Below, piece by piece: positions 3,813 to 20,020 of a stretch of DNA of 32,241 nucleotides (the first letter of the stretch is position 1; every line of letters begins with the position of its first letter). A program made the position numbers and the translations under genes. The stretch covers positions 1-32,241 of the forward strand of contig CANQUE010000024.1 in assembly GCA_947626905.1 (NCBI GenBank), in the 5' to 3' direction. The stretch comes from an uncultured Oscillospiraceae bacterium (GTDB lineage Bacteria > Bacillota > Clostridia > Oscillospirales > Oscillospiraceae). The notes beneath the pieces were generated by a model. It made no database searches. It worked only from the letters and a program-made list of their open reading frames with translations, and was not told where the DNA came from.

Positions 3813-3842
3813 CGGACAAATGCGCTCCCTCCCGCATACAAT
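3813..3842 (+). promoter_or_regulatory. Possible promoter with its -10 inside the hairpin loop
   Basis: TACAAT (3837-3842) lies in the hairpin loop. CGGACA (3813-3818) is 18 bp upstream as a partial -35. The predicted start near 3849 would give an RNA lacking the 5' arm, leaving the GGGAGGG ribosome binding site free. The -35 match is weak, so this is tentative. Confidence 0.35.
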
Positions 3843-3872: not shown

Positions 3873-4121
3873 GTGCAATATCTTCTGACATACCGAAGCC
3901 TGACCTATGCCCAGCGGGCGGCAAGATTGCTGGAACGGGCCGGGGTGACGGGGACCCTCTCCCGGGTGCCCAAGGACGCGTCCGCAAGAGGCTGTGCCTA
4001 CTGCGTGGCCGTTCCGGCCCGGCACAGGGACAGGGCGTTGGGCGTTCTTTCCAAGGCTGGGTTCGGGCCGGAGCGGGTGCTGCTGCGCCATGAAGACGGC
4101 TCCTGGGAGGCGGCGGAATGA
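3873..4121 (+). CDS. DUF3343 family protein (putative S/Se carrier-like)
   Basis: The 82-residue product matches the pattern of DUF3343 (Pfam describes it as a putative Se/S carrier protein-like family). It has an N-terminal Y-L-L-T-Y-R-S strand, a helix with alternating Ala and Arg, and a Cys pair at C41 and C44 in the segment where the family normally has its conserved Cys. I chose GTG 3873 because GGGAGGG lies 7 bp upstream; the in-frame TTG at 3855 lies inside the terminator hairpin and has no ribosome binding site. Its stop overlaps the start of the cysteine-desulfurase-like gene (ATGA), which fits a role in receiving sulfur or selenium from that enzyme. That role is inference from family and context. 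Confidence 0.75.
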   Translation: MQYLLTYRSLTYAQRAARLLERAGVTGTLSRVPKDASARGCAYCVAVPARHRDRALGVLSKAGFGPERVLLRHEDGSWEAAE

Positions 4122-5239
4122 TCTATCTGGACAGCGCCGCCACCAGCTTGCTGAAACCCGCGGCGGTACCTTATGCCGTGGCGGAGGCCATCCGCACCAT
4201 GGCCAGTCCCGGCCGCGGCGGATATGAAAGCGCCATGCTGGCGGCGGATATGGTGCTGGACTGCCGTCTGGCGCTGGCGGATATGTTCTGCGTGAAGGAC
4301 CCGGAGCGGGTCGTGCTCACGTCCAGCGCCACCCACGGACTGAACATCGCCCTGCACAGCCTGGTCCGGCCGGGGGACCGGGTGGTGATCTCCGGCTATG
4401 AGCATAACGCGGTCTGGCGGCCGCTGCGGGCGCTTGGGGCGAAGACCGACGTGGCGGCGTCGGAGCTTTTTGCGCCGGAAAAGGCGGTGGAGGCGTTCCG
4501 GCGGCGGCTGCCCGGGGCAAAGGCCGCCGTTTGCACGCAGGTATCCAATGTGTTCGGCTATATCCTGCCGGTGGAACAGATCGCCGGTCTGTGCCGGAGG
4601 GAGGGCGTGCCGCTGATCGTGGACGCATCCCAGGGCGCGGGAGCGGTGGGTCTGGATTTTGAGGCCCTTGGCTGTGCTTTCGCCGCCATGCCGGGCCATA
4701 AAGGACTGCTGGGTCCCCAGGGGACCGGCGTGCTGCTTTGCGGCGGCGGACCGGCGCTGCCGCTGATGGCGGGAGGCACAGGGTCCATGAGCGCGGGGGC
4801 GGATATGCCGGATTTTCTGCCGGACCGGCTGGAGGCGGGCACCCACAACGTACCGGGAGCCGCGGGCCTGCTGGCGGGGGTGCGGTGGCTGGCAAAGCGC
4901 ACTTTGCCGGAAGTGCTGGCCCACGAACGGGAGCTGCTGGCGGCGTTTTCCGACAGGCTGGGGCGGTATGGGAAGATCAAACAGTATCTGGCGCCCCGTC
5001 TGTCGGACCAGGCGGGAGTGCTCTCTGTCCAGTTCAAAAACATGGACTGCGAACAGGCGGCGGCTCGTCTGGGAGAGATGGGCGTGGCCGTGCGGGCGGG
5101 GCTGCACTGCGCGCCGCTGGCCCATCGGACAGCGGGGACCTTTCAGACCGGGACGGTACGCTTCAGCTTTTCGCCCTTCAATACCCTGTCGGAGGTGCTG
5201 GCGGCGGCGGATGCGGCCGGAGAGATCGCCGGGGCATAA
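4118..5239 (+). CDS. Cysteine desulfurase-like PLP enzyme (aminotransferase class V)
   Basis: The 373-residue product is a class V aminotransferase-fold enzyme of the cysteine desulfurase/selenocysteine lyase type. Visible features are the N-terminal YLDSAATSLLKP, the His of SGYEHNAVW, D169 in VDASQGAG, the PLP-binding K195 in MPGHKGLLGPQGTG, and the mobile-loop C331 in RAGLHCAPLAH. Such enzymes strip sulfur or selenium from (seleno)cysteine as a persulfide on the loop Cys. It belongs with a shorter group found next to DUF3343 genes rather than with IscS/NifS of Fe-S operons, as no iscU or suf genes are present. Its start overlaps the DUF3343 stop. A wobble-paired hairpin follows. Confidence 0.88.
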   Translation: MIYLDSAATSLLKPAAVPYAVAEAIRTMASPGRGGYESAMLAADMVLDCRLALADMFCVKDPERVVLTSSATHGLNIALHSLVRPGDRVVISGYEHNAVWRPLRALGAKTDVAASELFAPEKAVEAFRRRLPGAKAAVCTQVSNVFGYILPVEQIAGLCRREGVPLIVDASQGAGAVGLDFEALGCAFAAMPGHKGLLGPQGTGVLLCGGGPALPLMAGGTGSMSAGADMPDFLPDRLEAGTHNVPGAAGLLAGVRWLAKRTLPEVLAHERELLAAFSDRLGRYGKIKQYLAPRLSDQAGVLSVQFKNMDCEQAAARLGEMGVAVRAGLHCAPLAHRTAGTFQTGTVRFSFSPFNTLSEVLAAADAAGEIAGA

Positions 5240-5258
5240 AAGGCTTACCCGGCCCGGA

Positions 5259-5293
5259 CGCGCTCTGCCGTGGCGGCGGAGCGCGCCGCTTTT
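5259..5293 (+). terminator. Imperfect terminator after the cysteine-desulfurase-like gene
   Basis: CGCGCTCTGCC (5259-5269) pairs with GGCGGAGCGCG (5275-5285) using one U-G wobble. A short T run (5290-5293) follows four nucleotides later. The gap before the T run makes it a weaker terminator. Confidence 0.45.
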
Positions 5294-5294
5294 A

Positions 5295-5323
5295 TTGACA
5301 GACGGCGAAAGAACGATTATACT
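5295..5323 (+). promoter_or_regulatory. Promoter of the GH13 gene
   Basis: A perfect TTGACA (5295-5300) and TATACT (5318-5323) are spaced by 17 bp. A strong AAGGAGG (5355-5361) precedes the ATG at 5368. This is one of the best consensus promoters in the window. Confidence 0.8.
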
Positions 5324-5367
5324 ATCCCTCCGGTTCGAACGGTTTTGACAGGACAAGGAGGCAGAAG

Positions 5368-7275
5368 ATGGTCCCCTGGCAGGAGAGCGTATATTCCGAC
5401 GGCACGGCGCTGTTCGTGAGCCGGCCGTCCCCGGCGATCGGAGAAACAGTGGCGGTGCGGCTGCGGATGTATGAGAGCGCGCCGGTGCGGGGCGTGCGGC
5501 TGCGGTATCTGCGCAACGGACTGGAACAGATCGTTCCGGCCCGGAAGATCGGCGCGGAGCGCGGTCTGGCGTGGTATGAGGCGCAAATGCCCGTCACCGA
5601 AGATCGGATGCAGTACCAGTTTTATCTGCTGATGGAGGACGGCCTGTATTATTACACCCAGCGAGGGCTGAGCCGGTGTATGCCGGACCACACATATGAT
5701 TTCGTGCTACTGGCGGACTATGTACAGCCCGCCTGGGTGAAAGAGGCGGTGTTTTATCAGATCTTCCCGGAGCGCTTCTTTAACGGCGATCCCGGCAATG
5801 ACGTGCGCCCCGGGGAGTACGCCCAGGAAGGGCACCCGGCCATCCGCATGGAGAGGTGGACCGACCGGCCGCTGTCCTACCAGGAGGGATTCTGCCTGGA
5901 CTTTTTCGGCGGGGATCTGGAGGGCATCCGGCAAAAGATCCCGTATTTGCGGGACCTGGGCGTCACGGCGCTGTACCTGAACCCGATCTTCCGGGCGCCC
6001 TCTACCCACAAATACGACTGCGTGGATTATTTCCATGTGGACCCCCATTTTGGCGGGGACGAGGCGCTGGCGGCTCTGTCGGAGCAGCTGCACGCCAACG
6101 GGATGAGGCTCATCCTGGATATATCCATCAACCATACCGGGGCCAACCACCGCTGGTTCAACCGGGACGGCATGTTTTTCGATGCGGCTCAGGGCGCTTA
6201 CCACGACCCGGACTGCCGGGAGCGGGGCTATTACTTCTTTGGCCCGGACAACACATATCACGGCTGGGCGGGCAACAGCAACCTGCCGACGCTCAACTAT
6301 ACCTCTCAGGCCCTGCGGGATGAGATATACAGGGGAGAGGATTCCGTACTGAAGAAATGGCTGAAGCCGCCCTATTCCATTGACGGCTGGCGGTTCGACG
6401 TGGCGGATACCTTCGCCCGCAACGACAGCGTGCAGCTGGCCCACCAGCTGTGGCCGGAGATCAGAAAGAGCATCCGCGCTGTCAATCCCCAGGCGTATAT
6501 CCTGGCGGAGGACTGGGGGGACTGCGCCGGATATCTGCAGGGGAGCGAGTGGGATTCTCCGATGAATTACTTCGGCTGCGGCCGGCCCATCCGGCAGTTT
6601 TTGGGTCAGCCGGACCTGTTTTTGGGCCGGGACCCGCTGCTGCGGGAGGCGAGCCGCGGGATGCGGGCGGAAGATCTGGCCCTGCGGATCGTGCAGCATC
6701 TGGGAAAGCTGCCCTATGTCATATGGGAAAATCAGTTCAATCTCTTTGACAGCCACGACACCAGCCGCCTGCACAACGATCCGGCCATCTCCCCCATGGC
6801 CTGGCGGGGAGCGGTATATTTTCAGTTCATCCTGCCCGGGGCCGCCAGCATCTATTATGGCGATGAGGCCACCATCGGCGGGACCACGGATTCCAACGAG
6901 GGCTGCCGCTATCCCATGCCCTGGGGCAGCGGATTTGAGGCCGGCGAGGCCTATCGCGTCTACCGCACGATGGCCCGGCTGAAAACGGCCCATCCGGCCC
7001 TCTCCCACGGGGGGATGCAGCTCCTGTATGCCAAAGGGGATGTGATCGCTCTGGGCCGTTCTGACCGGGAGGAGGCGTTCGCGGCGGTGGTCTCCGTGTC
7101 GGATAAGACGGAACGGGTCCGGCTGCCTTTGGGGGCCATGGGCGCGGCCGGGTTGGAGGACGCGGATGTGATGGGGGAGAGGGTCGTATGCAGGGCGAGG
7201 GACGCATACGGCGTGGAGCTGGAGATCCCCCCGAAAACGAGCTATTTTGTCCAATGCCGGATGAAAGATCGATAA
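5368..7275 (+). CDS. GH13 alpha-amylase family enzyme (neopullulanase/cyclomaltodextrinase/maltogenic type)
   Basis: The 635-residue product has an N-terminal beta-sandwich (about 1-125) resembling the CBM34 domain of GH13_20 enzymes. A TIM-barrel catalytic domain (AVFYQIFPERF onward) and a C-terminal beta domain follow. All four GH13 regions are visible: DISINHTG; GWRFDVAD with the nucleophile D344; ILAEDW with the acid/base E381; and FDSHDTSRL with the transition-state stabiliser D464. These enzymes hydrolyse alpha-1,4 (and some alpha-1,6) links in maltodextrins, cyclodextrins or pullulan. No signal peptide is visible, so it should act in the cytoplasm on imported oligosaccharides. It is a single-gene unit with a strong promoter and terminator. 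The exact substrate cannot be read from the sequence. Confidence 0.9.
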   Translation: MVPWQESVYSDGTALFVSRPSPAIGETVAVRLRMYESAPVRGVRLRYLRNGLEQIVPARKIGAERGLAWYEAQMPVTEDRMQYQFYLLMEDGLYYYTQRGLSRCMPDHTYDFVLLADYVQPAWVKEAVFYQIFPERFFNGDPGNDVRPGEYAQEGHPAIRMERWTDRPLSYQEGFCLDFFGGDLEGIRQKIPYLRDLGVTALYLNPIFRAPSTHKYDCVDYFHVDPHFGGDEALAALSEQLHANGMRLILDISINHTGANHRWFNRDGMFFDAAQGAYHDPDCRERGYYFFGPDNTYHGWAGNSNLPTLNYTSQALRDEIYRGEDSVLKKWLKPPYSIDGWRFDVADTFARNDSVQLAHQLWPEIRKSIRAVNPQAYILAEDWGDCAGYLQGSEWDSPMNYFGCGRPIRQFLGQPDLFLGRDPLLREASRGMRAEDLALRIVQHLGKLPYVIWENQFNLFDSHDTSRLHNDPAISPMAWRGAVYFQFILPGAASIYYGDEATIGGTTDSNEGCRYPMPWGSGFEAGEAYRVYRTMARLKTAHPALSHGGMQLLYAKGDVIALGRSDREEAFAAVVSVSDKTERVRLPLGAMGAAGLEDADVMGERVVCRARDAYGVELEIPPKTSYFVQCRMKDR

Positions 7276-7333: not shown

Positions 7334-8056
7334 TCAGTCGTCCAGAGGGAGCACATCCCCGTCTTCGGAGATCTTCTCCATGACCCCGTCGTGGATCAGC
7401 CAAGCCTCGCCCCGCAGCTCCTCGCGGCCGTCCCGGGACAGGATGTAACTGCCGTCCGGCAGGACAAAGAACATCCGCCCCTCGCTGTCAGGGATGGCGA
7501 TGTCCTCGAACAGGTCCAGTCCATCCAGCACGGTCCCGGCCACCGTATTGTAGTGGGGAATGATATTTGCCTCCGTCAGTCCCAGGCCGGGCAGAAAGCG
7601 CTCATAGTCCGGATCGACGGCCTCGCCTTCCAGCTCCGGATGGGAGTACACGCACGCGGCGCTGTTCATGCTCCCGGCGCTGATGCCGACGACGACCCCG
7701 TCGAAACCGGACAGCATCTCACCCAGGCCGATGGCCTGAAAGAAGGCGTTTTGGGTGGGCACGTGGCCTCCCGACAAGATGATCAGATCCGCCTGCGCGA
7801 TGAGCGCGCCGGCGTCCTCGGCGGTGCGCCAGTCCAGTACGTCATAGGAGAAAAACGCAAACCCGGCCCGCTCCAGGCTCTCCGCCATCGACGCGCTGTA
7901 AAAATCGTTGGAAGATTCGTCGTCCGGGTCGGAACAGACTTGCAGCGCGCGGCAGGGATAGGGAAGGGCCAGATGCAGCTCGTGGATGAATCCGTTGGCG
8001 GGGTTCACATCCGGCGTATCCGGACCGGTGGGACTGCTGGTGAAAAAACAGGTCAT
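7334..8056 (-). CDS. Peptidase E-like protein (S51 family, class I glutamine amidotransferase-like fold)
   Basis: The 240-residue product has the S51 (peptidase E/cyanophycinase) core: ILSGGHVPTQNAFF around 93-106, then the nucleophile elbow VVGISAGSMNSA with Ser126. A following segment has LGL...IIPHYN, where the catalytic His normally lies. S51 peptidases are cytoplasmic serine peptidases that cleave small Asp-containing peptides. There is no signal peptide. The substrate is unknown. I chose ATG 8056 because CAAGGAG lies 7 bp upstream; an in-frame ATG at 8086 falls in a small leader hairpin without a ribosome binding site. It is divergent from the M60 gene, and the two promoters share the same -35-like motif. 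Confidence 0.8.
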   Translation of the reverse strand: MTCFFTSSPTGPDTPDVNPANGFIHELHLALPYPCRALQVCSDPDDESSNDFYSASMAESLERAGFAFFSYDVLDWRTAEDAGALIAQADLIILSGGHVPTQNAFFQAIGLGEMLSGFDGVVVGISAGSMNSAACVYSHPELEGEAVDPDYERFLPGLGLTEANIIPHYNTVAGTVLDGLDLFEDIAIPDSEGRMFFVLPDGSYILSRDGREELRGEAWLIHDGVMEKISEDGDVLPLDD

Positions 8057-8110
8057 GGAAAAACTCCTTGTTTCCGTGCCGGGCATACCCGGCTGTACTG
8101 TTACCGGCTC

Positions 8111-8285: not shown

Positions 8286-11200
8286 ATGAAAAGATTTATC
8301 GCAGCTTTGCTGGCGCTTATGATGATGCTCAGTATGGCTGTTCCCACATTCGCGGCGGACGGCGCTGCGTCGGAGCCATCGTCTGCGCCGGAAGGGACGC
8401 CGGTCCAGGCGTCGGAGGACACGCCCTCCGCCAGCCCGGAAGCGTCGCCCTCCGCAAGTCCTGAGGCCGAGGCCACCGATGACCCGGAAGCTACGCCTTC
8501 GGAAGATCCTGAGGCCACGCCCACGGTGGACCCGGAAGCTACGCCCTCCGCAAGCCCTGAGGCGTCGCCCTCCGCAAGCCCTGAGGCGGTACCGGAACCT
8601 ACGTCTACGCCGGCCGATCCCTTCGCCAACGGGCCCCTGGTCCCCACCTCCGCGGGCCAGCTGGATCTGGCGGTCATCCTGGCCATGGATCTGGGGGGGA
8701 CCATCCCCTGGTTCCGGGCGGAACTGACCGGAACGGAGGGCAGGTACTATCAGATGGACATGCCGGGCGATGGGGAGTGCCACAGCTTCATGGAGCTGCC
8801 GGAAGGCACGTATACCCTCGCCGTCACGGGTGCGGGCTATGCCCGGTATGAGCAGACCGTCAGCATAGGGAAGAGCGACGGGATATTGCTGCAGCTGTCC
8901 GTGGGCCATGTGGCGGGGCTGGACGGCGGGGCGCACTACGGTGTGCTGCGGCCCGGCGACCTGAACGGCGACGGCGTCATTGACGGCGGCGACAGCCTTT
9001 TGATGATGCAGGCGGTGGACGGCACGGCGCAGTGCGATCTGGCGGATTTGAACGGCGACGGCGGCGTGACGCTGGCGGACGCGGAATATCTGGCCAAGAG
9101 CCTGGCGCTGGGCCGGCTGGACAGCGCCGCGCTGCTGGCCACCGAGGCCCACTATGTCCCGGTGGCGTCCATCGCGTCCCTGGCCGGGGAGAACACCCAG
9201 GCCCAGGGCATGGAAAACCTGTTCAAAGACAACGGCGAGAAGCTCACCCTGAGCCCCGCCGACGGGCAAACGCCCATCTCCGAGGAGGCCCCGGTAGAGG
9301 TGCTGTTCGGCATGGCCGAGGGGGCTACCACCGACGCCATCCTCATTGAGGATACCAATATCGACGCCGGCGAGGTCACCGTCTATTTTGACGACGGCAC
9401 CAGCGCTACCGCCTCCATCGGCGGCGGCACGGCCCGGTTCTCCATGGCCCTGTTCTCCGCCGCCCCCTCTGTCAGGGTGGTCAAGGATGACCGGGGCAAC
9501 ATCACGGTGGACTTGGGCGGCCAGGTGGCCGTGAAACGGGTGTCCTTGAAGATCACCGGCGTGACGGGCCCCATGAATCTGGCCTCTATTTCGCAGGTGG
9601 AATTTGTCAACGGGATGGAAGACCGTATCCCGGAGCCGGATCTGAGCCGGCCGGAAAATGTGACGGCCAAGGCGGGGAGCGCCCAGTTTACCGTGTCCTG
9701 GTCCCCCTGCGAGAACATCACCGGCTATGTGGTGCAGGTCAGCGACGGCGTCAACCCCAAGGAAACGTATTCCCTGGGCGGCACCAGTTTGACCGTCACC
9801 CGGTATGGCAAGGACGACCTTATCAACTACACCACCTATACCGTGGCGGTCCGGTCCGTCAACGGGGCGTGGGAGAGCCCTTGGTCGGACAGCGTTTCCG
9901 TGACGCCTGTGCCTTCCGGCAAACCGGACAAGCCGGACAATGTGACGGCCAAGGGAGGATACGAGTCCATCACGGTGAGCTGGAAGGCCATGAAGGACAC
10001 CGAAAAGTATGACCTCTATTATAAGAAGGACGGGGACGCCAGCTTTGCCAAGATCCCCGATCTGACTGTGAACAGCTATACCATCAAGGGACTGGACAGC
10101 TCCAGGGCGACCACCTACATCGCCTACGTGGTGGGCAAAAACGCGCTGGGTGAGAGCGCGCCCTCTCTGTATGCCAGCGCCGATACGGTCACGCTGATCC
10201 CGGCGGAGATGCCCCGGTATAACCTGATCAACCGGGACGGCTCCGGCAAGCCCGGCAGGGACCACATCCTGTCCGCCGCCCAGAGTGGCGGCACCATGGC
10301 GGCCAGTCCGCTGGACAGCGCCGACGGCACCGCCTGGGGCACGGTGGACGGCGATCCCGCCTCCTACTATGAGCGCATGTCCTGGGACGACGGCGGCTAT
10401 AACTGGGAGCCCGGCGCCAACCGCGGTCTGAGCTATGTGTTCGATGATGTGTACACCATCGATACCATCGGCATGATGTCCGCGGTGGACAGCAATATGG
10501 ATTATACCTATCTCAAGATCCGCTGGTTCGACGCCCAGGGAAACGGCCATCTGATCGGCCGGGATCTGATGAGCAGCGAGCGGCGTACCGACAGCCAGGG
10601 CAAGACCTATTTCTTCCTGCGCCTGCCCTATCCTGTGGACGCCAAGCAGATCCAGATCGGCACCGCCCGGTACTGGCCGGGCAACCCCAGCGTCAATGTT
10701 TCCGAGGTGTATTTCTACAAGTACGATCCCCTGAAACGGGAGATCGGGGCCCTGTATGCCGACGACCTGCACACCATGCTGGTGGAGGGCGTCACGCTGG
10801 AGCAGCTCAACAGCCTGAAAGAGCGGATCGAATCCTCCGTGGACGAGTTCGGCGAGCCCAATCCGGACAGAGAGCAGCTTCTCAGAGAATGGGAAACGGC
10901 CCTCAAGATCTATAACGAGCAGTTCGTGGGCAAAGTGACCCAGGTCCATACCGGCATCACCGCCAGCGGGGACGAGCACGGCTTCGGCGGGCTGAATGCC
11001 TGGCAGCCCTTGGGCGTGGTCGCCGCGGCGGGAGAAACTGTTACCGTCTATGTGGGCCACAATTATAAGAAGACGGGCGCGGATACCAATCTGCAGCTGG
11101 TCGCCACCCAGTATAACGCCGAGGCCAACGCCATGAGCAAGGTGGTGGTGGAGAAGCTGAAGGTGGGCGCCAACGAGGTGGAGATCCCCAAGATCTGGAC

Positions 11201-13646
11201 CACCACCGGCGTGGAGTCCGGCGGCGCACTGTACGTGCAGTATACCGGCGGCGCCGCGTCTGAGGACAGATATGCCGTGCGGGTCAGCGGCGGCACGGCG
11301 GTGCCGGTGCTGGATCTCTATAAGATCACCGATCCTGTCCAGCGGCTGGAGAAGGTGAGAGCCTATCTGGAGGAGCTGATCGCTTACGCGGACGGCCAGG
11401 CCGCGCTGCACAGCCAGGTCCATCAGGGCGAAAACGCCGTCAGCAAAGCGGTAGATTATGCCTTTGACGAGCGCACCTGCGTGCTGGGCGCCACGGATAT
11501 CATGCTGGACACCATGATGCTGTCCCTGCCGGCGAAGCAGGTCGTGGCGGGCTGCGGCCGAAACGCGGAGGCGCTGCTTGCCTCCCTGGACGCCATGGAG
11601 AGCATGATGGACCTATTCTATCAGCACAAGGGCCTGAACGCCGCCGCTCCTGACGGGGCGGACCGGATCCCCAACCGGCATTTGAACATCCGCTACCAGC
11701 GCATGTTCTCCGGGGCGTTCATGTACGCCAGCGGCGACCACATCGGCATCGGCTATGATGAGACCGACAATATGGCCGGGTGTGCGGGCGTCACCGCCAC
11801 CGCCGACGGACAATATGTTTCCGGCAACTATTTTGGCTGGGGCATCGCCCATGAGATCGGCCACGACATCAACCAGGGCTGCTATGCCATCGCGGAGATC
11901 ACCAACAATTACTTCGCCGTCTTGGCCCAGGCCAGGGATGATAACGAGAGCGTCCGCTTCCAGTACCCGCTGGTATATGAAAAGGTGACCAGCGGCACCA
12001 AAGGCAGCAGCACCAATGTGTTTACCCAGCTGGGAATGTATTGGCAGCTCCACCTGGCCTATGATACGGGCTGGAATTACAAGACCTATGACAGCTATGA
12101 CGAGCAGCTGAAAAACCTGTTCTATGCCCGGGTGGATACATATGCCCGCAACCCCAAGAAGGCCCCCAAGGGGCAGGGGAACATCGCGCTGTCCCTGGAT
12201 ACGAAGGACAGCGATCAGATCCTGATGCGCCTGGCCTGCGCCGCGGCGGAGCGGAATATCCTGGACTTCTTTGTCCGCTGGGGCAAGACGCCCGACGCGG
12301 ATACCATCGCCTATGCTTCCCAGTTCCCTGTGGAGACCCGCGCCATCTATTACGCCAGCGACGACGCCCGGCGCTACGCCCTCCAGTCCGGACGGACAAG
12401 CGCCCTTGCCGCCGACGGCTCTACCCAGGCGCTGGGCTCTGTCGCTGCGTCGGCGGGAGAGCAGGCCAATCAGGTGTGCATCACGATGACGCCCGGAGAG
12501 GCCATCCCGGCGGAGGACGTGCTGGGCTATGAGATCGTGCGCTGCACCGTGGCAGGCGGGGCAACGGAAAAACGGACGGTGGGCTTTGTCACTGGAAATA
12601 GCTTTACCGACGTGATCCAGGCCATGAACAACCGCACCGTGTATTACGAGGTCACACTGGTGGACAAATACCTCAACCGCTCCGCTCCGGCGGTCACAGA
12701 CGCGGTGAAGGTGAAGCACGAGGGCAATTTGGACAAGACCTTCTGGACCGTGTCCACGACCGGCCTGGAGGCGGAGCCGGATATCACCGGCGGCGACGAG
12801 GAAACGCCCGAGCGGATCGAGGAGGATTCCGCCAAGCGGATCATCGACGGGAAGGACTCCACCGTTTACAGCGCCCATGTGGGCGAGAACGCCTGCATAG
12901 AGATCGACCTGCGGGATACCCAGGTGATCAGCGGATTCAAGTATGTGGCCGGAAGCGGCGTTCCCATCGGCGGATATCTGGTGTATGTGCACCAGGCCGG
13001 CGAGTGGATCCTGGTGGACGAAGGGGAGCTGGGCGGCAGCAAGAGCGTGTATTTCTCCAACGCGGACGGCAAGTATGTGAGCACCTACGCGGCCGACGCC
13101 GTGCGGCTGGTCATCACCGGCCAGGTGGGGCAGGACATCACCGTGGCGGAACTGGATCTGCTGGGCCTGACGGGCGATGACGTGGACTTCCGCGCGGCGG
13201 ATGACGGCACCGCGGCCGTGGGCTATCTTACAAACGATTTCCAGTATGGCGAAGAGGAAACAGACGTGATCCCGGCGGGATCGCTGGTGTTCACCGGCAG
13301 CTATAAGGGCAATGCCGCCTACAACGTGGTGGTGCTCTACGATCAGGACGGAAAGATCGTGGCCGCGCCTTCCGCCGGGGGCATGCTCCGGGCCGACCAG
13401 GTCATTCTGGCCCCGGTGCCCGACCGGGGGGATATCAAGAACGTGTCCGACGGTACGTGGATCTACTGGATCTACAAAGAGGACCTGGAGCGCTTCACTC
13501 TGCCGCAAAAGGTCCGCGCGGAGCTCTACCGGGTGAACAACGCCCGGACCAACGCGGGCGAGCGGCTGGTGAGCGACAGCCTGTTCGTGCCGGTGCCGGA
13601 GCATCCCGGTCAGATCGACCTGACCAACGCCCGCAGCGTGGGCTGA
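8286..13646 (+). CDS. Secreted dockerin-containing M60 (enhancin-like) zinc metallopeptidase with FN3 and discoidin domains
   Basis: The 1786-residue protein has a signal peptide (1-24, cleavage near PTFA|AD) and a Ser/Pro/Glu/Ala repeat linker (about 35-105). A beta domain follows, then a dockerin-like module with two calcium-loop repeats: D225-L-N-G-D229 and D254-L-N-G-D258. Next come two FN3 domains (about 456-545 and 550-640), a discoidin/F5-8C-like domain (about 646-818) and the M60 region (about 885-1365). A further FN3-like domain (about 1395-1475), a second F5/8C domain (about 1515-1631) and a C-terminal domain complete the protein. The gluzincin motif is H1189-E1190-I-G-H1193, with E1204 as candidate third ligand. 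M60 enzymes of gut bacteria cut O-glycosylated mucin-type glycoproteins. It has no sorting signal; surface retention may use the dockerin. It lies 18 bp upstream of, and probably cotranscribed with, the wall-anchored partner gene. Confidence 0.88.
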   Translation: MKRFIAALLALMMMLSMAVPTFAADGAASEPSSAPEGTPVQASEDTPSASPEASPSASPEAEATDDPEATPSEDPEATPTVDPEATPSASPEASPSASPEAVPEPTSTPADPFANGPLVPTSAGQLDLAVILAMDLGGTIPWFRAELTGTEGRYYQMDMPGDGECHSFMELPEGTYTLAVTGAGYARYEQTVSIGKSDGILLQLSVGHVAGLDGGAHYGVLRPGDLNGDGVIDGGDSLLMMQAVDGTAQCDLADLNGDGGVTLADAEYLAKSLALGRLDSAALLATEAHYVPVASIASLAGENTQAQGMENLFKDNGEKLTLSPADGQTPISEEAPVEVLFGMAEGATTDAILIEDTNIDAGEVTVYFDDGTSATASIGGGTARFSMALFSAAPSVRVVKDDRGNITVDLGGQVAVKRVSLKITGVTGPMNLASISQVEFVNGMEDRIPEPDLSRPENVTAKAGSAQFTVSWSPCENITGYVVQVSDGVNPKETYSLGGTSLTVTRYGKDDLINYTTYTVAVRSVNGAWESPWSDSVSVTPVPSGKPDKPDNVTAKGGYESITVSWKAMKDTEKYDLYYKKDGDASFAKIPDLTVNSYTIKGLDSSRATTYIAYVVGKNALGESAPSLYASADTVTLIPAEMPRYNLINRDGSGKPGRDHILSAAQSGGTMAASPLDSADGTAWGTVDGDPASYYERMSWDDGGYNWEPGANRGLSYVFDDVYTIDTIGMMSAVDSNMDYTYLKIRWFDAQGNGHLIGRDLMSSERRTDSQGKTYFFLRLPYPVDAKQIQIGTARYWPGNPSVNVSEVYFYKYDPLKREIGALYADDLHTMLVEGVTLEQLNSLKERIESSVDEFGEPNPDREQLLREWETALKIYNEQFVGKVTQVHTGITASGDEHGFGGLNAWQPLGVVAAAGETVTVYVGHNYKKTGADTNLQLVATQYNAEANAMSKVVVEKLKVGANEVEIPKIWTTTGVESGGALYVQYTGGAASEDRYAVRVSGGTAVPVLDLYKITDPVQRLEKVRAYLEELIAYADGQAALHSQVHQGENAVSKAVDYAFDERTCVLGATDIMLDTMMLSLPAKQVVAGCGRNAEALLASLDAMESMMDLFYQHKGLNAAAPDGADRIPNRHLNIRYQRMFSGAFMYASGDHIGIGYDETDNMAGCAGVTATADGQYVSGNYFGWGIAHEIGHDINQGCYAIAEITNNYFAVLAQARDDNESVRFQYPLVYEKVTSGTKGSSTNVFTQLGMYWQLHLAYDTGWNYKTYDSYDEQLKNLFYARVDTYARNPKKAPKGQGNIALSLDTKDSDQILMRLACAAAERNILDFFVRWGKTPDADTIAYASQFPVETRAIYYASDDARRYALQSGRTSALAADGSTQALGSVAASAGEQANQVCITMTPGEAIPAEDVLGYEIVRCTVAGGATEKRTVGFVTGNSFTDVIQAMNNRTVYYEVTLVDKYLNRSAPAVTDAVKVKHEGNLDKTFWTVSTTGLEAEPDITGGDEETPERIEEDSAKRIIDGKDSTVYSAHVGENACIEIDLRDTQVISGFKYVAGSGVPIGGYLVYVHQAGEWILVDEGELGGSKSVYFSNADGKYVSTYAADAVRLVITGQVGQDITVAELDLLGLTGDDVDFRAADDGTAAVGYLTNDFQYGEEETDVIPAGSLVFTGSYKGNAAYNVVVLYDQDGKIVAAPSAGGMLRADQVILAPVPDRGDIKNVSDGTWIYWIYKEDLERFTLPQKVRAELYRVNNARTNAGERLVSDSLFVPVPEHPGQIDLTNARSVG
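8409..8605 (+). repeat. In-frame tandem repeats coding a Ser-Pro-Glu-Ala linker
   Basis: Repeated units translate as S-P-E-A-S-P-S-A and D-P-E-A-T-P. At DNA level the unit CCCTCCGCAAGCCCTGAGG recurs nearly unchanged. This is a low-complexity linker next to the signal peptide, probably extended and possibly glycosylated, and prone to copy-number change by slippage. Confidence 0.75.
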
Positions 13647-13664
13647 GGCGGGAAGGAGTAAGAT

Positions 13665-14852
13665 ATGAAGAGACCTATGCATAAGACCTTTATCCCGGCC
13701 CTGGTCCTTCTGGGCCTGCTGCTGGCGGTGGTGGCCGCCCCCTGCGCCCTGGCGGCGGAGGGGGCCGCCCCGCTGGACGACGTGCTGGTCGCCTCCGACG
13801 GCACGGTGACGCTCCAGTCCGGCCATGCGGGGCCGGAGGGCATTTGCTCTGTCCAGCTTGCACTGGCGCTGGAAGAGGGGGCAGAGGGGTCGCTGTCGTT
13901 CCGCTTCGACGGGGGCTTGGACAGCCGGATCACTTACGCCACCGAGCGTGAGGGCGTGCTGTATATCTATGTGGCCGGCGCGGAGCCGCTGATGGACAGC
14001 GGCGCGTCCCAGCTCGTACTGGGGACCGTTTCCGGCGCTTCGCCGGAGAGCGTCGCGCTGGTGGAAGATTCCCTCCAGTTCGTTTACGGCCGTCAGACGC
14101 TGGTCCAGCCGGTGGCGGTCAAGGCCGGCGAAACGCCGTCGGAGCAGGGCTCCGACAGCGGCCAGGATAGCGGAGATAACGGACCTGCCGGCGGCGATCC
14201 TGCAACAGGCGACGACCCTGCGGCCGACAGCAGGGAAGCGCTCAGAAGCGAGCTGGAGAGCGTGTCCGCCGTCTACGGAAAGGACAGCGAGACCGGCAAG
14301 CGATACACCCAGGCCAGTTGGGACGTGCTGGTGAGCGCCATCGACCGGGCTATGGCCCTTTTGAATGACCCGGCTTCCTCTCCGGAAGATCTGGAGAGCG
14401 CTTTGAGCCAGCTCCGGACCGCGGTGAACGGCCTTGTGAGCAGGAGCCATTCCGATCTGCAGGAGGCGCTGGACGAGGCGGAAGGCTACGATCCGTCGGG
14501 CTATACTCCGGAGAGCTACGAGGCGCTGCAGCAGGCCGCGGCCCAGGCGCGGGAGGCGCTGACCAGCGGCGACGACAGCCGTCTGTCCGAGGCCATGGAG
14601 AAGTTGCGCCAGGCCATAGACGGCCTGGTGCCTCAGACGTCCGCCGACAGCAACGGGGAAGTGATCCAGGATGGAGCGGAGGGGGACCCCGGCGCCCGCG
14701 ACGCCTCCACGCCCGCCCCGGTCGCCGGCACGTCCGGCCCCCGGTCCCCCAGCACAGGGGATGAGACCCAGATCATGCTCTGGGCGCTGATGCTGGATCT
14801 TTCCGCCCTGCTGCTGATCGCCCTGCTTTGGCGCAGAAGAGCGGAGAGATAG
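13665..14852 (+). CDS. Cell-wall-anchored protein with a cohesin-like domain, two FIVAR repeats and a variant sorting signal
   Basis: The 395-residue product starts with a signal peptide (about 1-30, CALA|AEG). Residues about 35-145 look like a compact all-beta cohesin/carbohydrate-binding fold: SVQLALAL, SLSFRFDG, then YIYVAG, QLVLGTVSG and ALVEDSLQFV strands. A Gly/Asp/Ser linker (150-185) leads to two FIVAR helical repeats (about 188-262 and 264-325), each ending in the typical L-R-x-A-(V/I)-(N/D)-G-L-V. The C-terminus is a sorting signal: SPSTG (361-365), a hydrophobic stretch, then RRRAER. It would be displayed on peptidoglycan by a sortase. The AAGGAG 6 bp before the ATG and the 18-bp gap indicate an operon with the dockerin-bearing M60 peptidase. 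The cohesin call rests on pattern and context and is the least certain part. Confidence 0.75.
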   Translation: MKRPMHKTFIPALVLLGLLLAVVAAPCALAAEGAAPLDDVLVASDGTVTLQSGHAGPEGICSVQLALALEEGAEGSLSFRFDGGLDSRITYATEREGVLYIYVAGAEPLMDSGASQLVLGTVSGASPESVALVEDSLQFVYGRQTLVQPVAVKAGETPSEQGSDSGQDSGDNGPAGGDPATGDDPAADSREALRSELESVSAVYGKDSETGKRYTQASWDVLVSAIDRAMALLNDPASSPEDLESALSQLRTAVNGLVSRSHSDLQEALDEAEGYDPSGYTPESYEALQQAAAQAREALTSGDDSRLSEAMEKLRQAIDGLVPQTSADSNGEVIQDGAEGDPGARDASTPAPVAGTSGPRSPSTGDETQIMLWALMLDLSALLLIALLWRRRAER

Positions 14853-14869
14853 ACCGTATAAAAGACCTC

Positions 14870-14902
14870 AAGGCCCCGCGCTCCGCGCAGGGCCTTTTCT
14901 TT
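14870..14902 (+). terminator. Terminator of the M60/partner operon
   Basis: AAGGCCC...GGGCCTT arms, with an inner GCG/CGC pairing, are followed by TTCTTT. The structure lies 18 bp after the stop codon and closes the two-gene unit. Confidence 0.8.
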
Positions 14903-14908
14903 GGACGG

Positions 14909-14937
14909 TTGAATCCGGAAGGGGAATGTACTATAAT
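14909..14937 (+). promoter_or_regulatory. Promoter of the PcrA-like helicase gene
   Basis: TTGAAT (14909-14914) and a perfect TATAAT (14932-14937) are spaced by 17 bp. Confidence 0.65.
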
Positions 14938-15006
14938 TTTACTGTACTGTTTATCGGACGGCAGATGTAGATAATGGATGTATTCCAGAGAAAGGCGGGC
15001 GCGGCG

Positions 15007-17166
15007 ATGGTTTTTTCCGATCTGAATCAGGCCCAGCGGGAGGCGGTGACCGCCACGGAGGGATACGTGCGGGTCATCGCGGGGGCGGGCTCCGGAAAGA
15101 CCCGCGCGCTCACGCACCGGTTTGCCTATCTGGTCAACGATCTTGGCATCCTGCCGGAAAACATCCTGTGCGTCACCTTCACCAACAAGGCGGCCAATGA
15201 GATGCGCCAGCGCATCCATAACCTGACCGGGGACAGCGACGTGGGCTATATCAACACCTTCCACGGATTTTGCGTGTCCGTGCTCCAGGAGGACAGCTAT
15301 GCCGTGCAGTATCCCAAGAGCTTTCTGGTGCTGGACAACGCCGATATCGATCAGATGCTCCGCCTGATCTATGAAGAGCGGGGCCTGACGCTGCGGGATA
15401 TGACCTTCTCCGATGCCCGGGACATGATCGAGATCGAGAAGATGTGCAAGCGGCCGGACTACTACCTGGACATGATCGACATGGACCTGCAGACCTTGCG
15501 GGAAAAGTATGAGTCCGCCCGGTCGGCCAGGGACATCATTTTTTACGGGTATCTCTACCAGGAGAAAAAGTGCTTCGCCCTGGATTATAACGACCTGATC
15601 CAATTCACCCTGTACATATTCTCCCGCTGCGAGGACATACGCCTGAAGTGGCAGAAGCGTTTGGAATACATCATGGTGGACGAGTTTCAGGACATCGACC
15701 GGCCGCAGTATGAGCTGATGGAGGCGCTGTGCGGCTATCATAAAAACCTGTTCATCGTGGGGGACCCGGACCAGACCATCTACACCTGGCGAGGGGCGGA
15801 TGTGCGGTACCTGCTGGATTTTGACAGATCCCACCCCGGCACCAGAACGATCTTCATGATGGAGAATTACCGCTCCATGCCCCAGATCCTGGCGGCGGCC
15901 AACTCCCTGATCGACAAAAACCGGATGCGGATCAAGAAGGACCTGCTCCCCCGGCTCCCGGCGGGGGAGAGCGTGCTGTGCCACCACGGAAAGGCCGCCG
16001 AAGAGGAGGCGGAGTGGATGGCGGCGGAAATGCTCCGGCTCCATGAGGCAGGCGTCGGATTCAAGGATATGACCGTGCTGTACCGTGCCCACTATGTGAC
16101 CCGGACGGTAGAGGGGGTGCTTCAGAAAAGAAAGATCCCCTATGCCATATACAGCGGCGTGCCGTTCTTTGGCCGGGCGGAGATCAAGGATGCTCTCAGC
16201 TATCTGCGCATGATCGCCTACAAGGACGACCTGGCTTTCCGGAGAGTGGTGAATGTGCCGAAGCGGAACATGGGCCGCCGGCGGATGGAGTTTTTGGAGA
16301 AGACGGCGGAAAAGATGGGCTGCACCCTCTATGAGGCCCTGAGCCGGAGCCTGGAGGAGGACATCTTTAAGGGGACGAAGGCCGCCGCTTTCGTGAGCCT
16401 GGTGGAGTCCTATGCTGCGGGGTATGCCGGCCGGCCCGTTTCAGAGGTGCTCAGCGCCATCCTCAATGAGAGCGGCTATGAGCAGGCGCTGCGGACGGAG
16501 GGGAGCCAGCAGCGGCTGGACAATCTGGCGGAGCTGAAGCAGGCGGTGTATGAATACGAGACCGGCTGCGGGGAGGAAGCGGGATTGGAGCATTATCTCA
16601 GCCATGTGGCGCTGTTCACCAACGCCGACGGCGCGGAGCCCGGCGACAAGGTGAAGCTGATGACCGTCCACGCCGCCAAGGGGCTGGAGTTTCCCTATGT
16701 TTTCCTGTGCGGGATGAACGAGGGCGTGTTCCCGACCCGAAAGGTCAAGACCCTGCCGGGCATGGAGGAGGAGAGGCGGCTCGCGTTCGTGGCGATGACC
16801 CGGGCGGAGAAGCGGCTGTATCTCACGGAGGCGGAGGGCCGCGCCCTGGACGGGGCGCCCCGGTATCCCTCCCGGTTCGTTTTGGACATCGATCCCACGC
16901 TGCTCGAATATACCGCGCCGCCCCGGGAGGAGCTCATCGCCGAGGCCAGAGAGTATATCGGCGCCAGCCAGCGGCGGCTGCCCCAGAGCGAGGATATGCT
17001 CTTTCAGGCGGGGGATCGAGTGGTGCACGATATTCTGGGCCCCGGCACCGTGGAACAGGCGGACAGAGAAAAAGGCGCTTACCTGGTGCGCTTTGACGGC
17101 ATGGCCACGGCGCGGGCCATCTCCTTCCGGGCCAAGCTGCGGCGGGAAACGGCGGACCGGTCGTGA
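15007..17166 (+). CDS. UvrD/PcrA-type superfamily 1 ATP-dependent DNA helicase
   Basis: The 719-residue product carries the SF1A helicase motifs in order: LNQAQREAV (Q motif), AGAGSGKT Walker A (25-32), FTNKAANEM (Ia), MVDEFQDI (II), GDPDQTIYTWRGA (III), ENYRS (IV), TVHAAKGLEF (V) and VAMTRAEKRLY (VI). A C-terminal Tudor-like DRVVHDILGPGTV segment follows, as in PcrA, where it contacts RNA polymerase. The protein unwinds DNA 3'-5' in repair and in clearing replication-transcription conflicts. I chose ATG 15007 because it starts just before the Q motif and has AAAGGCGG upstream; ATG 14974 is an in-frame alternative with no better site. It is preceded by its own promoter and followed by dapF with a separate promoter. 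Confidence 0.9.
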   Translation: MVFSDLNQAQREAVTATEGYVRVIAGAGSGKTRALTHRFAYLVNDLGILPENILCVTFTNKAANEMRQRIHNLTGDSDVGYINTFHGFCVSVLQEDSYAVQYPKSFLVLDNADIDQMLRLIYEERGLTLRDMTFSDARDMIEIEKMCKRPDYYLDMIDMDLQTLREKYESARSARDIIFYGYLYQEKKCFALDYNDLIQFTLYIFSRCEDIRLKWQKRLEYIMVDEFQDIDRPQYELMEALCGYHKNLFIVGDPDQTIYTWRGADVRYLLDFDRSHPGTRTIFMMENYRSMPQILAAANSLIDKNRMRIKKDLLPRLPAGESVLCHHGKAAEEEAEWMAAEMLRLHEAGVGFKDMTVLYRAHYVTRTVEGVLQKRKIPYAIYSGVPFFGRAEIKDALSYLRMIAYKDDLAFRRVVNVPKRNMGRRRMEFLEKTAEKMGCTLYEALSRSLEEDIFKGTKAAAFVSLVESYAAGYAGRPVSEVLSAILNESGYEQALRTEGSQQRLDNLAELKQAVYEYETGCGEEAGLEHYLSHVALFTNADGAEPGDKVKLMTVHAAKGLEFPYVFLCGMNEGVFPTRKVKTLPGMEEERRLAFVAMTRAEKRLYLTEAEGRALDGAPRYPSRFVLDIDPTLLEYTAPPREELIAEAREYIGASQRRLPQSEDMLFQAGDRVVHDILGPGTVEQADREKGAYLVRFDGMATARAISFRAKLRRETADRS

Positions 17167-17197
17167 AGCGCCTGCCGGCGCGAAGGTGGCCTGGCGA

Positions 17198-17226
17198 TTG
17201 ACTTTTATCCGGTGCGAGGGTACAAT
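17198..17226 (+). promoter_or_regulatory. Promoter of dapF
   Basis: TTGACT (17198-17203) and TACAAT (17221-17226) are spaced by 17 bp. The predicted leader is about 41 nt and ends in AAAGGAG before the ATG. Confidence 0.65.
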
Positions 17227-17273
17227 TCGATGTGTGTGGATCGGCCGCGTCGGGCGGCGGAAAGGAGAGCGGC

Positions 17274-18107
17274 ATGGATTTTTGGAAGATGAACGGCGCC
17301 GGAAACGATTTTATCGTGATCAATGATATGGACCGGCGCATTCCCGATGAAAAGCTGGGAGAACTGGCCCGGCGGGTGTGCGAGCGCCATCTGTCTGTGG
17401 GAGCGGACGGCATGATGGTGGTGCGCCCGGCCCAGGACGGCGGAGATTACCGGATGGTGTTTTTCAATTCCGACGGTTCGGAGGGGGAGATGTGCGGCAA
17501 TGGGGCCCGCTGCATCTGCCGGTACGGATATGAAAACGGCCTGGCCGGGGAGATCCAGCGGGTGGAGACCCTGTCCGGCACGGTCACCGGCCGGCGGATC
17601 GACCGCCGGCAATACCGGGTGCGGCTCAACGACCCCAGCGTTTTCCGTCCGGACTATCCGATCGAGGTGGACGGCAGGGTATATCCCTGCGCCTATGTGG
17701 AGCTGGGGTCCCCCGGGCTGCCCCACGCGGCGGTGCCCTATGAGGACCTGGCCGGCGCCGATGAGAATGCGCTGCGGGCCCTGGGCCGGAAGATGCGCTA
17801 TCACCCGGCTTTTCCCAAGGGTGCCAACGTAAACTTTTATGAGATCCTGGGGCCGGACCATCTTTATGAACGGACCTATGAGCGGGGAGTGGAGGATTTC
17901 ACCTACGCCTGCGGCACGGGGACCGGTTCGGTGGTGGCGGTGCTGTCCCGGATGGGAAAGGTCAGCGGAAAGAACGTGCGGGTGGATATGACCGGCGGCA
18001 CGCTCAGCATCGACGTAACGGACACAGGCGATAAGATAACGGACATCTACCTCACCGGTCCGACCAACATCGTCTGCAGGGGCGTCCTCACCGACGAGGA
18101 ACTGTGA
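17274..18107 (+). CDS. dapF: Diaminopimelate epimerase DapF
   Basis: The 277-residue enzyme interconverts LL- and meso-diaminopimelate in lysine and peptidoglycan synthesis. Both catalytic cysteines are present: C74 in SEGEMCGNGARC and C213 in TYACGTGTGS. The N-terminal F-W-K-M-N-G-A-G-N-D-F signature and ADG motif are intact. The start ATG 17274 has AAAGGAG 7 bp upstream. The end overlaps a GTGA that could start the next gene. Confidence 0.95.
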   Translation: MDFWKMNGAGNDFIVINDMDRRIPDEKLGELARRVCERHLSVGADGMMVVRPAQDGGDYRMVFFNSDGSEGEMCGNGARCICRYGYENGLAGEIQRVETLSGTVTGRRIDRRQYRVRLNDPSVFRPDYPIEVDGRVYPCAYVELGSPGLPHAAVPYEDLAGADENALRALGRKMRYHPAFPKGANVNFYEILGPDHLYERTYERGVEDFTYACGTGTGSVVAVLSRMGKVSGKNVRVDMTGGTLSIDVTDTGDKITDIYLTGPTNIVCRGVLTDEEL

Positions 18108-18139
18108 GCTATTTTACCGCGAAGGAGCGAGCATGCGCG

Positions 18140-20020
18140 ATGAAAAAACAGGTCAAAAGCGGGGCAAAAAAGCTGCTGGCTTCCGCTCTTTCCCATGACT
18201 CAAAGAGCCGGAGGGTACTGTATAATGCCGCGCAGTTCGTAACAGATGCAGCCCATGCACAGATCGTGACCAAGATCGATGAAGTCACGGATATCTCCCG
18301 ACAGGACCCGGAACTTCTGTGTGAGCAGCTGGCACAATACGATCTTGTTTCGTTTGATGCGTTTGACACGCTGATACTGCGTGCGGTAGATGATCCCAAG
18401 TCAGTTTTTTCCCTGTGGGGAATGGAATATAAGGAAGTATACGGCCGTGCTGTCCGGCGGGAAGTTGAACAGGAACTGCGAGCAAACAGCGGCGGCAGGC
18501 CTGTTACTATGGCGGAAATATACCAGAAGATGGAACGCCGGTTCGGCATCCCATGGGAACAGGGCATGGAGCGCGAAATTGAATTGGAAATGCACTGCTG
18601 CATGCCGAATCCCTATATGAAGCAAATATACCAGGGCTTATTGGACAGGGGTATCAAACCGATCATCACCTCGGATATGTATCTGCCAAAAGAGGCGTTG
18701 GGGCGAATACTGGAAAAATGTGGATACAACGGATACGAGGATCTGTATGTTTCATCGGATTGTGGAAAAAAGAAAAGTGACGGCACCCTGTTTCGGCACA
18801 TTTCTGCGCTTCATCCGGAGAAAAAACGATGCGTGCATGTGGGGGACAGTCTGAACTCTGACGTTACCCAGGCGCAAAATGCCGGCTGGGACGCCGTATA
18901 TTACAAAAATGTCCGCTCTCAAGGCATCCGGCTGTTTTCAGATCAGATGTCCCCGCTGGTCGGCAGCTTTTATCGTGGCGTGACAGATGCATATCTGTTT
19001 AACGGCTTGAAGCGGCAGGGTTCCCTTTACGACATCGGTTTTCTCTATTTTGGCCTGCCTGTCTTTGGCTTCTGCCAATGGCTGCATGATCTGGCGGCAA
19101 ATCTGGACATCGATCTTATTCTCTTTGCCGCAAGAGATATGCACGTCGTCTATACGCTCTATACTGAGTTGTACGACACGCCCAGCGAATATTTGCCGAT
19201 CTCGAGGGCTGCGGTCTTTCGGCTGGGATTCCCGGACGGCATGGAGTCCCTTTTGGGGAATATGGCGTATACAAAAAATACCCCCCCCCGCAGCGTTCAA
19301 GCGTATTTTCATAGCCAGAACCTTGAGCTTTTGCTGCCGTGGCTGGAGAAAGAAGGCATTTCTCCGGACACGCTTCTGTCCCCTGAATCATTGCCATCCG
19401 TCCGAAAGATATTGCTGAACAATGAGAAAGAGATATGTGCAGCATTTGCTCATGAAAGGGAGGCGGCGATCGGATATTACAACCGGCTTTTGAAAGTCCA
19501 TGCGCCGGTTTCCCGTATTTTGTTCGTCGATCTGAACGGGCGCTGTACTTCCCTCAGGGGCGTGGAACAGATAATAGACCTGTGCGGGGAAAAAGCAGAG
19601 GTGTTTGGCGCGCTCATGTACAGCGGCAGTTCGCTCGTTGCAGAAAGAGTGCTGGAGGAAAGCCTGCATATTTGGATGTTTTCCTGTTTGCACAATGTCG
19701 ATCTGTTTCAGTATTACACTGAATCAGGCATATCGCTGTCAGTCAGTGCGGAAAAATGGGTATTTACCAATAAACAAGGTTCACTTCTGTCCTATACAGA
19801 CGGTCATGGCGGCCTTCTATATTCCGAGGAAGCGCCGCTGGCCAAGTATGTCGATCCTATGCAAAAGGGCATTTTGGATTCTGCCAGAGTCTTTTCTGAG
19901 AAAATCACCCTTCCCAGCGGAAAGAGCATGCGTTTACCGCCAAGAGATTGTTTTTATCCTATGATGCAGGGAATGCGGGTTTTACGGAGGCTTGCGGAGG
20001 AGCTAAAAACAGGATATTGA
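18140..20020 (+). CDS. HAD-superfamily hydrolase-like protein (COG5610-type)
   Basis: The 626-residue protein has an N-terminal HAD domain. Motif I is D73-A-F-D76-T, motif II is ITSDMYL, a K-K-S-D stretch gives motif III, and motif IV is VGDSLNSD. The long C-terminal half contains ILFAARDMH and is of unknown function. Proteins of this type often sit in capsule or surface-polysaccharide clusters. Here it stands alone. Its base composition (near 50 percent GC by eye, with many A/T-ending codons) differs clearly from the GC-rich neighbours, which suggests recent acquisition. The start is uncertain: ATG 18140 has AAGGAG 12 bp upstream, while GTG 18104 overlaps the dapF stop with GAGGAA just before it. 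The substrate is unknown. Confidence 0.75.
   Translation: MKKQVKSGAKKLLASALSHDSKSRRVLYNAAQFVTDAAHAQIVTKIDEVTDISRQDPELLCEQLAQYDLVSFDAFDTLILRAVDDPKSVFSLWGMEYKEVYGRAVRREVEQELRANSGGRPVTMAEIYQKMERRFGIPWEQGMEREIELEMHCCMPNPYMKQIYQGLLDRGIKPIITSDMYLPKEALGRILEKCGYNGYEDLYVSSDCGKKKSDGTLFRHISALHPEKKRCVHVGDSLNSDVTQAQNAGWDAVYYKNVRSQGIRLFSDQMSPLVGSFYRGVTDAYLFNGLKRQGSLYDIGFLYFGLPVFGFCQWLHDLAANLDIDLILFAARDMHVVYTLYTELYDTPSEYLPISRAAVFRLGFPDGMESLLGNMAYTKNTPPRSVQAYFHSQNLELLLPWLEKEGISPDTLLSPESLPSVRKILLNNEKEICAAFAHEREAAIGYYNRLLKVHAPVSRILFVDLNGRCTSLRGVEQIIDLCGEKAEVFGALMYSGSSLVAERVLEESLHIWMFSCLHNVDLFQYYTESGISLSVSAEKWVFTNKQGSLLSYTDGHGGLLYSEEAPLAKYVDPMQKGILDSARVFSEKITLPSGKSMRLPPRDCFYPMMQGMRVLRRLAEELKTGY

Follow-up and report, generated by a model that had tools for sequence, protein, structure and literature searches.

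An M60 peptidase with an N-terminal dockerin and its adjacent surface protein form a recurrent gene pair

The enzyme and its partner

The 32,241-nucleotide contig CANQUE010000024.1 (assembly GCA_947626905.1), to which we refer at its full length as the window, originates from an uncultured Oscillospiraceae bacterium, probably an inhabitant of the gut. It contains two adjacent genes encoding a secreted metallopeptidase of the M60 family and a cell-surface protein, here termed the partner. In a preliminary description, the pair had been proposed to constitute a one-enzyme docking system, where a dockerin of the peptidase binds a cohesin-like domain of its neighbour. The locus comprises the following features:

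8286-13646, forward strand: gene of the M60 (PF13402) metallopeptidase with N-terminal dockerin, 1786 residues, secreted, without a surface anchor of its own
8286-8354, forward strand: signal peptide of the enzyme, about residues 1-23 (from the sequence, cleavage site placed by eye)
8643-8930, forward strand: module just upstream of the dockerin, about residues 120-215, with a weak PEGA/CarboxypepD_reg-like match (Pfam)
8952-9104, forward strand: type I dockerin, residues 223-273, with loops at residues 225-236 (8958-8993) and 254-265 (9045-9080) (Pfam and genome search)
9645-10178, forward strand: two fibronectin type III (fn3) domains, the best at residues 454-539, the second at about 547-631 and placed by eye (Pfam, 6e-16, two stretches)
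11517-12284, forward strand: Peptidase_M60 domain with the zinc motif HEIGH at 11850-11864 (Pfam and sequence)
13665-14852, forward strand: gene of the partner, a cell-surface protein of 395 residues, 18 base pairs (bp) after the enzyme
13755-14129, forward strand: N-terminal all-β domain of the partner, residues ~31-155 (about 125 residues), the proposed dockerin receptor
14235-14633, forward strand: the FIVAR repeats of the partner, two in number and a probable stalk, at about residues 191-257 and 257-323 (Pfam, 9.7e-11, two stretches)
14745-14852, forward strand: sorting signal consisting of SPSTGD (residue 361), a hydrophobic stretch and a basic tail (from the sequence)
14870-14896, forward strand: probable terminator of the two-gene unit, a GC-rich hairpin followed by TTTTCTTT (folding and sequence)

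The layout of both proteins in the preliminary description is borne out by our analysis. In the enzyme, Peptidase_M60 matches residues 1078-1333 with an E value of 3.2e-9 (37.1 bits at a cut-off of 25.8), the HExGH zinc motif is present as HEIGH at residues 1189-1193 and a galactose-binding F5/8C-like match stays below the Pfam cut-off. The C-terminal tail contains no sorting motif, and over 51 enzymes the maximum hydropathy of 19-residue stretches within the last 80 residues is 1.25, compared to at least 1.96 in the tails of partners from the genus. Several enzymes of the genus (e.g. L034, L037 and L047) contain LPxTG-like strings (VPATG, LPDTG, LPETG) about 75 residues from the C-terminus, which are located within the last domain and are not followed by a hydrophobic tail; these strings look accidental and could mislead motif scans. 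Members of the M60 family cut O-glycosylated proteins of the mucin type, and on the basis of this family knowledge the enzyme is probably a mucin-cutting protease. The dockerin near its N-terminus is matched by Dockerin_1 (PF00404) above the cut-off (E 8.1e-7, 29.6 bits at a cut-off of 22.9) with both calcium loops present, and the position of the module preceding it resembles that of the X-module in X-dockerin pairs.

The partner starts with a hydrophobic leader constituting a signal peptide, and its second FIVAR repeat (residues 257-323) is matched by the solved chains 7jrm and 7jrl. With its LPXTG-like motif, hydrophobic stretch and basic tail, and with the genome containing two matches to the sortase family (6.2e-28 and 9.5e-9), the protein has the predicted features of a sortase-anchored surface protein; the NCBIfam model LPXTG_anchor scores 12.8 bits, below its cut-off of 15.9. 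Residues 31-155 belong to no Pfam family, and no solved structure matches them credibly by sequence. The region 14850-14910, located 3' of the partner gene, has a folding energy of -29.5 kcal/mol (z -4.7) and contains a hairpin with a T-rich tail, and because this element follows the partner, both genes look like a single transcription unit; a scan for the terminator consensus listed the stem at 14870-14896 on the reverse strand only.

Distribution of the gene pair

In a whole-genome search, the enzyme was found in 22 of 35 genomes of the genus and the partner domain in the identical 22; the partner search returned a 23rd genome, G010, which matches at the sorting signal only. The spacing between both genes, measured with manually picked start codons, is 14-26 bp in all 22 genomes, and the N-terminal domains of the partners are 33-56% identical to that of the window. 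With both genes and both domains being conserved in 22 of 35 genomes, the two-gene layout is not a product of chance.

The same arrangement extends beyond the genus. In a sample of 394 genomes of the order, a widened partner profile detected the domain in 17 genomes, of which 16 were accepted, all with the partner located directly after an M60 gene. The remaining match in G218 (L094, E 0.002) was dropped as chance hit, since its genome contains no M60 match and the open reading frame shows neither a visible signal peptide nor an anchor. A separate M60 search of this sample returned 31 stretches corresponding to 30 genes in 28 genomes, with all 16 partner genomes included. Partners follow 24 of these genes (one assigned by layout only and one weakly), one is fused to its partner and five contain no recognizable dockerin. 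Among the 14 M60 genes beyond the 16, eight combine a dockerin with a secreted protein encoded by the next gene. A domain model derived from 30 other sequences recognizes the N-terminal domain of this secreted protein in six of the eight cases with E ≤ 3e-10 (E values refer to the excised stretch and are scaled to 10,000 sequences).

The fusion, found in G111 (L150:26-6766), combines enzyme and partner in one open reading frame of 2247 residues that ends in S-layer-like repeats; its partner domain is degenerate (E 0.09 when excised), and both dockerin loops retain their first and last aspartates, with one inner position changed. In the five genes without a Pfam dockerin (two in G142 and one each in G208, G266 and G393), no partner was seen next to the enzyme, with the gene of G393 running into the end of its contig. 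Dockerin-less enzymes of the order (L152, L154) carry FIVAR, NPCBM and F5/8C modules of their own, and two of three are arranged in tandem. Thus, each of the 24 M60 genes with a readable dockerin is accompanied by a partner, 23 as a pair and one as a fusion, compared to none of the four readable dockerin-less ones. G201 is left out of this count because its enzyme is not contained in one frame of the assembly and its dockerin is unreadable, although it is paired. An exact test of the split between dockerin and partner, with G201 taken as dockerin-bearing and the relatedness of genomes ignored, gives 4e-5.

A scan of named genomes revealed nine loci in five Oscillospiraceae metagenome-assembled genomes designated 'Lapin', which we take to be the French word for rabbit, and in four Lachnospiraceae, where the protein following the enzyme contains the same partner domain in all four cases. 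In a class-wide sample, three of 115 genomes matched. One is that of the window, and the other two represent species of a single genus from a different family, each of them with the same pair. The co-occurrence of the two genes, for which a survey of related loci had been suggested, is found in the genus, the order sample and Lachnospiraceae. The case named in the preliminary description as speaking against the docking system, a separate location of both genes in related genomes, was thus not borne out.

The partners share their N-terminal domain, whereas their anchors differ between lineages. Within the genus, 21 of 22 partners contain a sortase motif of the form xPxTGD 35-37 residues from the end, with G006 carrying a variant. 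Among 16 partners scanned outside the genus, Pfam detects S-layer repeats in nine and choline-binding repeats in one, and by eye further ones have a membrane tail or an LPXTG-like signal at the C-terminus. A conserved head combined with an exchangeable tail is what would be predicted for an anchoring adaptor.

On the side of the enzyme, the dockerin is retained in all 22 proteins of the genus by eye and in 20 by Pfam (E ≤ 0.001), and the module preceding it is alignable in all 22 (by eye). We have also aligned the first 500 residues of the 24 enzymes encoded by readable dockerin-bearing M60 genes of the order sample. Dockerin_1 is detected in 22 of them at E ≤ 0.01, and at the same threshold the upstream module matches PEGA in seven and CarboxypepD_reg in four. 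Seven positions are invariant in this alignment (Y176, G224, D225, D236, D254, D265 and G362), five of which (G224 and the aspartates D225, D236, D254 and D265, the first and last of both calcium loops) are located in the dockerin, which is the conserved part of this region.

Besides 20 M60 dockerins, the genus contains 18 other dockerin stretches, 12 of which were examined for their surroundings. In seven cases, a sortase-type or cohesin gene follows directly. These include G014 C24, with a cohesin carrying a sortase motif that is over the cut-off in one scan and just under it in another, G024 C12, with a cohesin under the cut-off (0.01), and two stretches in G023 C9 followed by cohesins over the cut-off, one of them with a sortase motif; in G005 C36, G010 C8 and G024 C6, the neighbouring sortase-type gene does not match a Pfam cohesin. 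No such neighbour follows the remaining five stretches, which comprise two more in G023 C9, two in G027 C231, where cohesin genes are instead located upstream, and a weak one in the window's own genome. Since seven of 12 stretches display it, a dockerin gene followed by a surface receptor, whether recognizable or not, is a repeated layout of the genus. Loci of this type in the genus (L161, L162, L163, L164, L165, L166 and L169) combine a secreted dockerin protein with a sortase-type or cohesin protein in the next gene, with the cohesin being recognizable in some only, and represent a family of paired docking genes in addition to the M60 pair.

Canonical cohesins are scarce in these genomes. 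The window's own genome, which is 90.9% complete, contains no match to PF00963 and two dockerin matches, that of the enzyme and a weak one in another protein. Latter match is partial and located at the C-terminus of a secreted protein that appears 5'-nucleotidase-like by eye (L063, G000:C22, reverse strand, open reading frame 2017-4506), next to which no partner was seen. No multi-domain scaffold was found in this genome, and with it the combination of a multi-cohesin scaffoldin and several dockerin enzymes that defines a cellulosome or mucinolysome was not found. At E ≤ 0.01, 19 of the 22 enzyme-bearing genomes of the genus contain no Pfam cohesin, and in the other three (G014, G020 and G024, with only G014 over the cut-off) it never resides in the partner, while in 16 of 22 the dockerin of the enzyme is the sole dockerin match at E ≤ 0.001. 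In the order sample, cohesins are detected at E ≤ 0.001 in 180 of 394 genomes, and 20 of 24 genomes with a pair or fusion do not contain any at this threshold.

The genes surrounding the pair in the window (2610-7275 and 14974-32239) are mostly of housekeeping function according to Pfam and include IspD, a class V aminotransferase, an alpha-amylase, a UvrD-type helicase, DAP epimerase, Dus, UvrA, a RecD2-like helicase, MreB, a dihydroorotase-like protein and carbamoyl-phosphate synthase. A Peptidase S51-like gene (7334-8086, reverse strand, Pfam 2.9e-6) is located upstream of the enzyme in divergent orientation.

A proposed docking unit and its alternatives

The described properties are consistent with a mechanism where both proteins are exported and where the partner would be attached to the cell surface through the anchor at its C-terminus, in the window by the action of a sortase, with the FIVAR repeats acting as stalk to hold up its N-terminal β-domain. 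The enzyme, which has no anchor, would bind this domain with its calcium-binding dockerin, preceded by the X-like module, in a presumably calcium-dependent contact, and the M60 domain would thus be kept on the cell. We assign a probability of about 0.72 to the two genes being a recurrent one-enzyme docking unit of this kind. The gene context, with its strict pairing, the exchange of anchors below a conserved head, the single fusion and the retention of the dockerin alongside the partner, strongly supports the two-gene surface system of the preliminary description, whereas its reading of the receptor as a cohesin found no support in sequence comparisons.

Several observations weigh against this assignment. 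Neither the partner in the window nor the 16 partners scanned outside the genus match the Pfam cohesin family (PF00963), and a comparison of partner domains with 30 Pfam cohesins in HHalign gave probabilities of 0.7% (30 domains) and 0.5% (39 domains). Two of the eight additional neighbours in the order sample are poorly described by the domain model, with L143 matching weakly (0.007) and L144 not at all, and the partner of G449 (L093) contains no recognized anchor. Pfam cohesins are present elsewhere in four of the 24 pair genomes (G299, G305, G440 and G449), in whose partners no cohesin match was found. In the dockerin, some ligands outside positions 1 and 12 are lost in the first loop of L108 and the second loop of L150. 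Finally, partner-associated enzymes share their entire N-terminal architecture, so that the gene context points to the dockerin no more than to other modules, and in a comparison of module distances (46 pairs) all modules correlate about equally with the partner, the dockerin least.

With no database match for residues 31-155, the term cohesin-like reflects an impression of the strand pattern. Cohesins adopt a nine-strand jelly-roll fold with a dockerin-binding face, and nine strand-like segments are identified by β-propensity in the partner domain and in cohesins alike, although the profile match is not specific. The corresponding correlation of 0.42 exceeds the maximum of 0.25 in 78 rotations, but an fn3 domain reaches 0.54, and this similarity is thus equally unspecific. 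In the HHalign comparison, controls were recovered with 99.9% for halves of the cohesin set and 92.8% for the two fn3 domains of the enzyme. At p<1e-4, a home-built hidden Markov model of cohesins detects two of 39 partner domains, compared to one of 390 shuffled and none of 39 reversed sequences, which is suggestive only. Our own profile aligner yields z-scores of 4.0 and 4.5 for two end-to-end alignments of the partner domain with cohesins and 1.7 for the genus-only alignment, but since the domain at residues 290-450 of the enzyme aligns to the partner domain with a z-score of 4.5, this result is not specific for cohesins. The receptor could be a cohesin that has diverged very strongly or a domain that binds dockerins without being related to cohesins. 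On balance, we favour the former in light of the strand count, the length and the precedents for paired genes. We attach a minor yet appreciable probability to a new dockerin-receptor family that is not homologous to cohesins and that heads surface proteins with freely exchanged anchors.

The absence of a cohesin signal would also be expected if the partner domain were no dockerin receptor at all and both proteins formed a functional pair on mucin, with the partner binding mucin or presenting the substrate and the dockerin binding elsewhere or to nothing outside the protein. The FIVAR repeats would fit such a role as they are also found in glycan-active proteins without dockerin, including three dockerin-less M60 proteins of the order. 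Yet this would leave unexplained why partner-associated enzymes retain the dockerin with invariant loop aspartates, why dockerin-less M60 proteins have no partner and what the dockerin would bind in the majority of pair genomes, which contain no Pfam cohesin, and we thus regard it as unlikely. Alternatively, the X-like module, the 290-450 domain or the fn3 domains might contact the partner, while the dockerin would serve as calcium-stabilized structural element. In support of this possibility, all modules travel with the partner at about equal evolutionary correlation, and in our profile alignments to the partner domain, the 290-450 domain performs no worse than cohesins (z 4.5 compared to 4.0). 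Since docking is an established function of dockerins (PMC5429695, PMC12997984) and five of the seven invariant positions are located in the dockerin, we consider it less probable still.

A scenario in which the dockerin binds a canonical cohesin encoded elsewhere, as part of a larger complex with the neighbour being incidental, could invoke the mucinolysome complexes described for Limousia (PMC12997984) and the few pair genomes with Pfam cohesins. It appears very improbable in view of the strict pairing with the neighbour and of the finding that neither the window's own genome nor most other genomes with the pair contain a cohesin match. Finally, the housekeeping genes around the pair might indicate a stable locus, where adjacency is inherited synteny devoid of functional meaning. 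The persistence of pairing across orders with different anchors, its occurrence in each of the 16 accepted genomes and the existence of a fusion leave this last explanation with hardly any credibility, and the survey has largely refuted it.

Relation to known systems and significance

A study of Clostridium perfringens reportedly describes M60 proteins of complex architecture, and the cohesin-dockerin glycosidase complexes of this species also involve FIVAR modules. The X82 glycosidase complexes of this organism resemble the proposed docking unit in their non-cellulosomal pairing of cohesin and dockerin, the use of single cohesins and their action on host glycans, but all five cohesin proteins also contain a glycoside hydrolase domain, and the complexes are formed between enzymes, with no dedicated anchor (described in PMC12997984). 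Also related is the mucinolysome of Limousia, another member of the gut Clostridia, for which dockerin-bearing enzymes including peptidases, a target in mucin and a sortase-anchored protein with N-terminal cohesin, cSca5, are described (PMC12997984). In that system, cohesins are recognizable, scaffoldins contain several of them and the anchor protein is predicted to take up the dockerins of scaffoldins and of most glycosidases (PMC12997984), whereas in our case a single enzyme has an anchor protein of its own encoded next to it, the search revealed no scaffold of several domains and the receptor shows no cohesin signature. In Ruminococcus flavefaciens, certain groups of dockerins bind surface cohesins instead of the scaffold, and ScaE similarly tethers a dockerin-bearing protein by a surface cohesin, although it is a canonical cohesin and serves a plant-fibre cellulosome (PMC5429695).

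A survey of M60-like proteins (PF13402) describes extracellular peptidases with glycan-binding modules and lists, in a table of 415 proteins, type 1 dockerins in two, PF07554 (FIVAR) in six and Gram-positive anchors in five cases (PMC3267712). Its main text does not contain the word cohesin, and docking by a neighbouring gene is not mentioned in the passages found. 'M60' is likewise absent from the main text of the Limousia paper (PMC12997984), which was the nearest among the matches listed for cohesin, dockerin and mucin in the open-licence PMC literature. No paper with an M60-dockerin pair as its subject was found in the same literature, with the survey PMC3267712 being the match for both terms and further matches judged by title and opening of the abstract.

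If the proposed docking unit were confirmed, certain Oscillospiraceae and Lachnospiraceae would use a dedicated adapter to tether a protease that probably cuts mucin to their own surface, and thus keep the products for themselves. It would supply a receptor for dockerins in genomes that contain no Pfam cohesins, define a domain family for which Pfam has no model and provide a modular design with exchangeable anchors that is directly testable by binding assays. Should the receptor belong to a family unrelated to cohesins, receptors of more than one type would exist for dockerins, and gut Clostridia would use dedicated two-gene units to tether individual enzymes.

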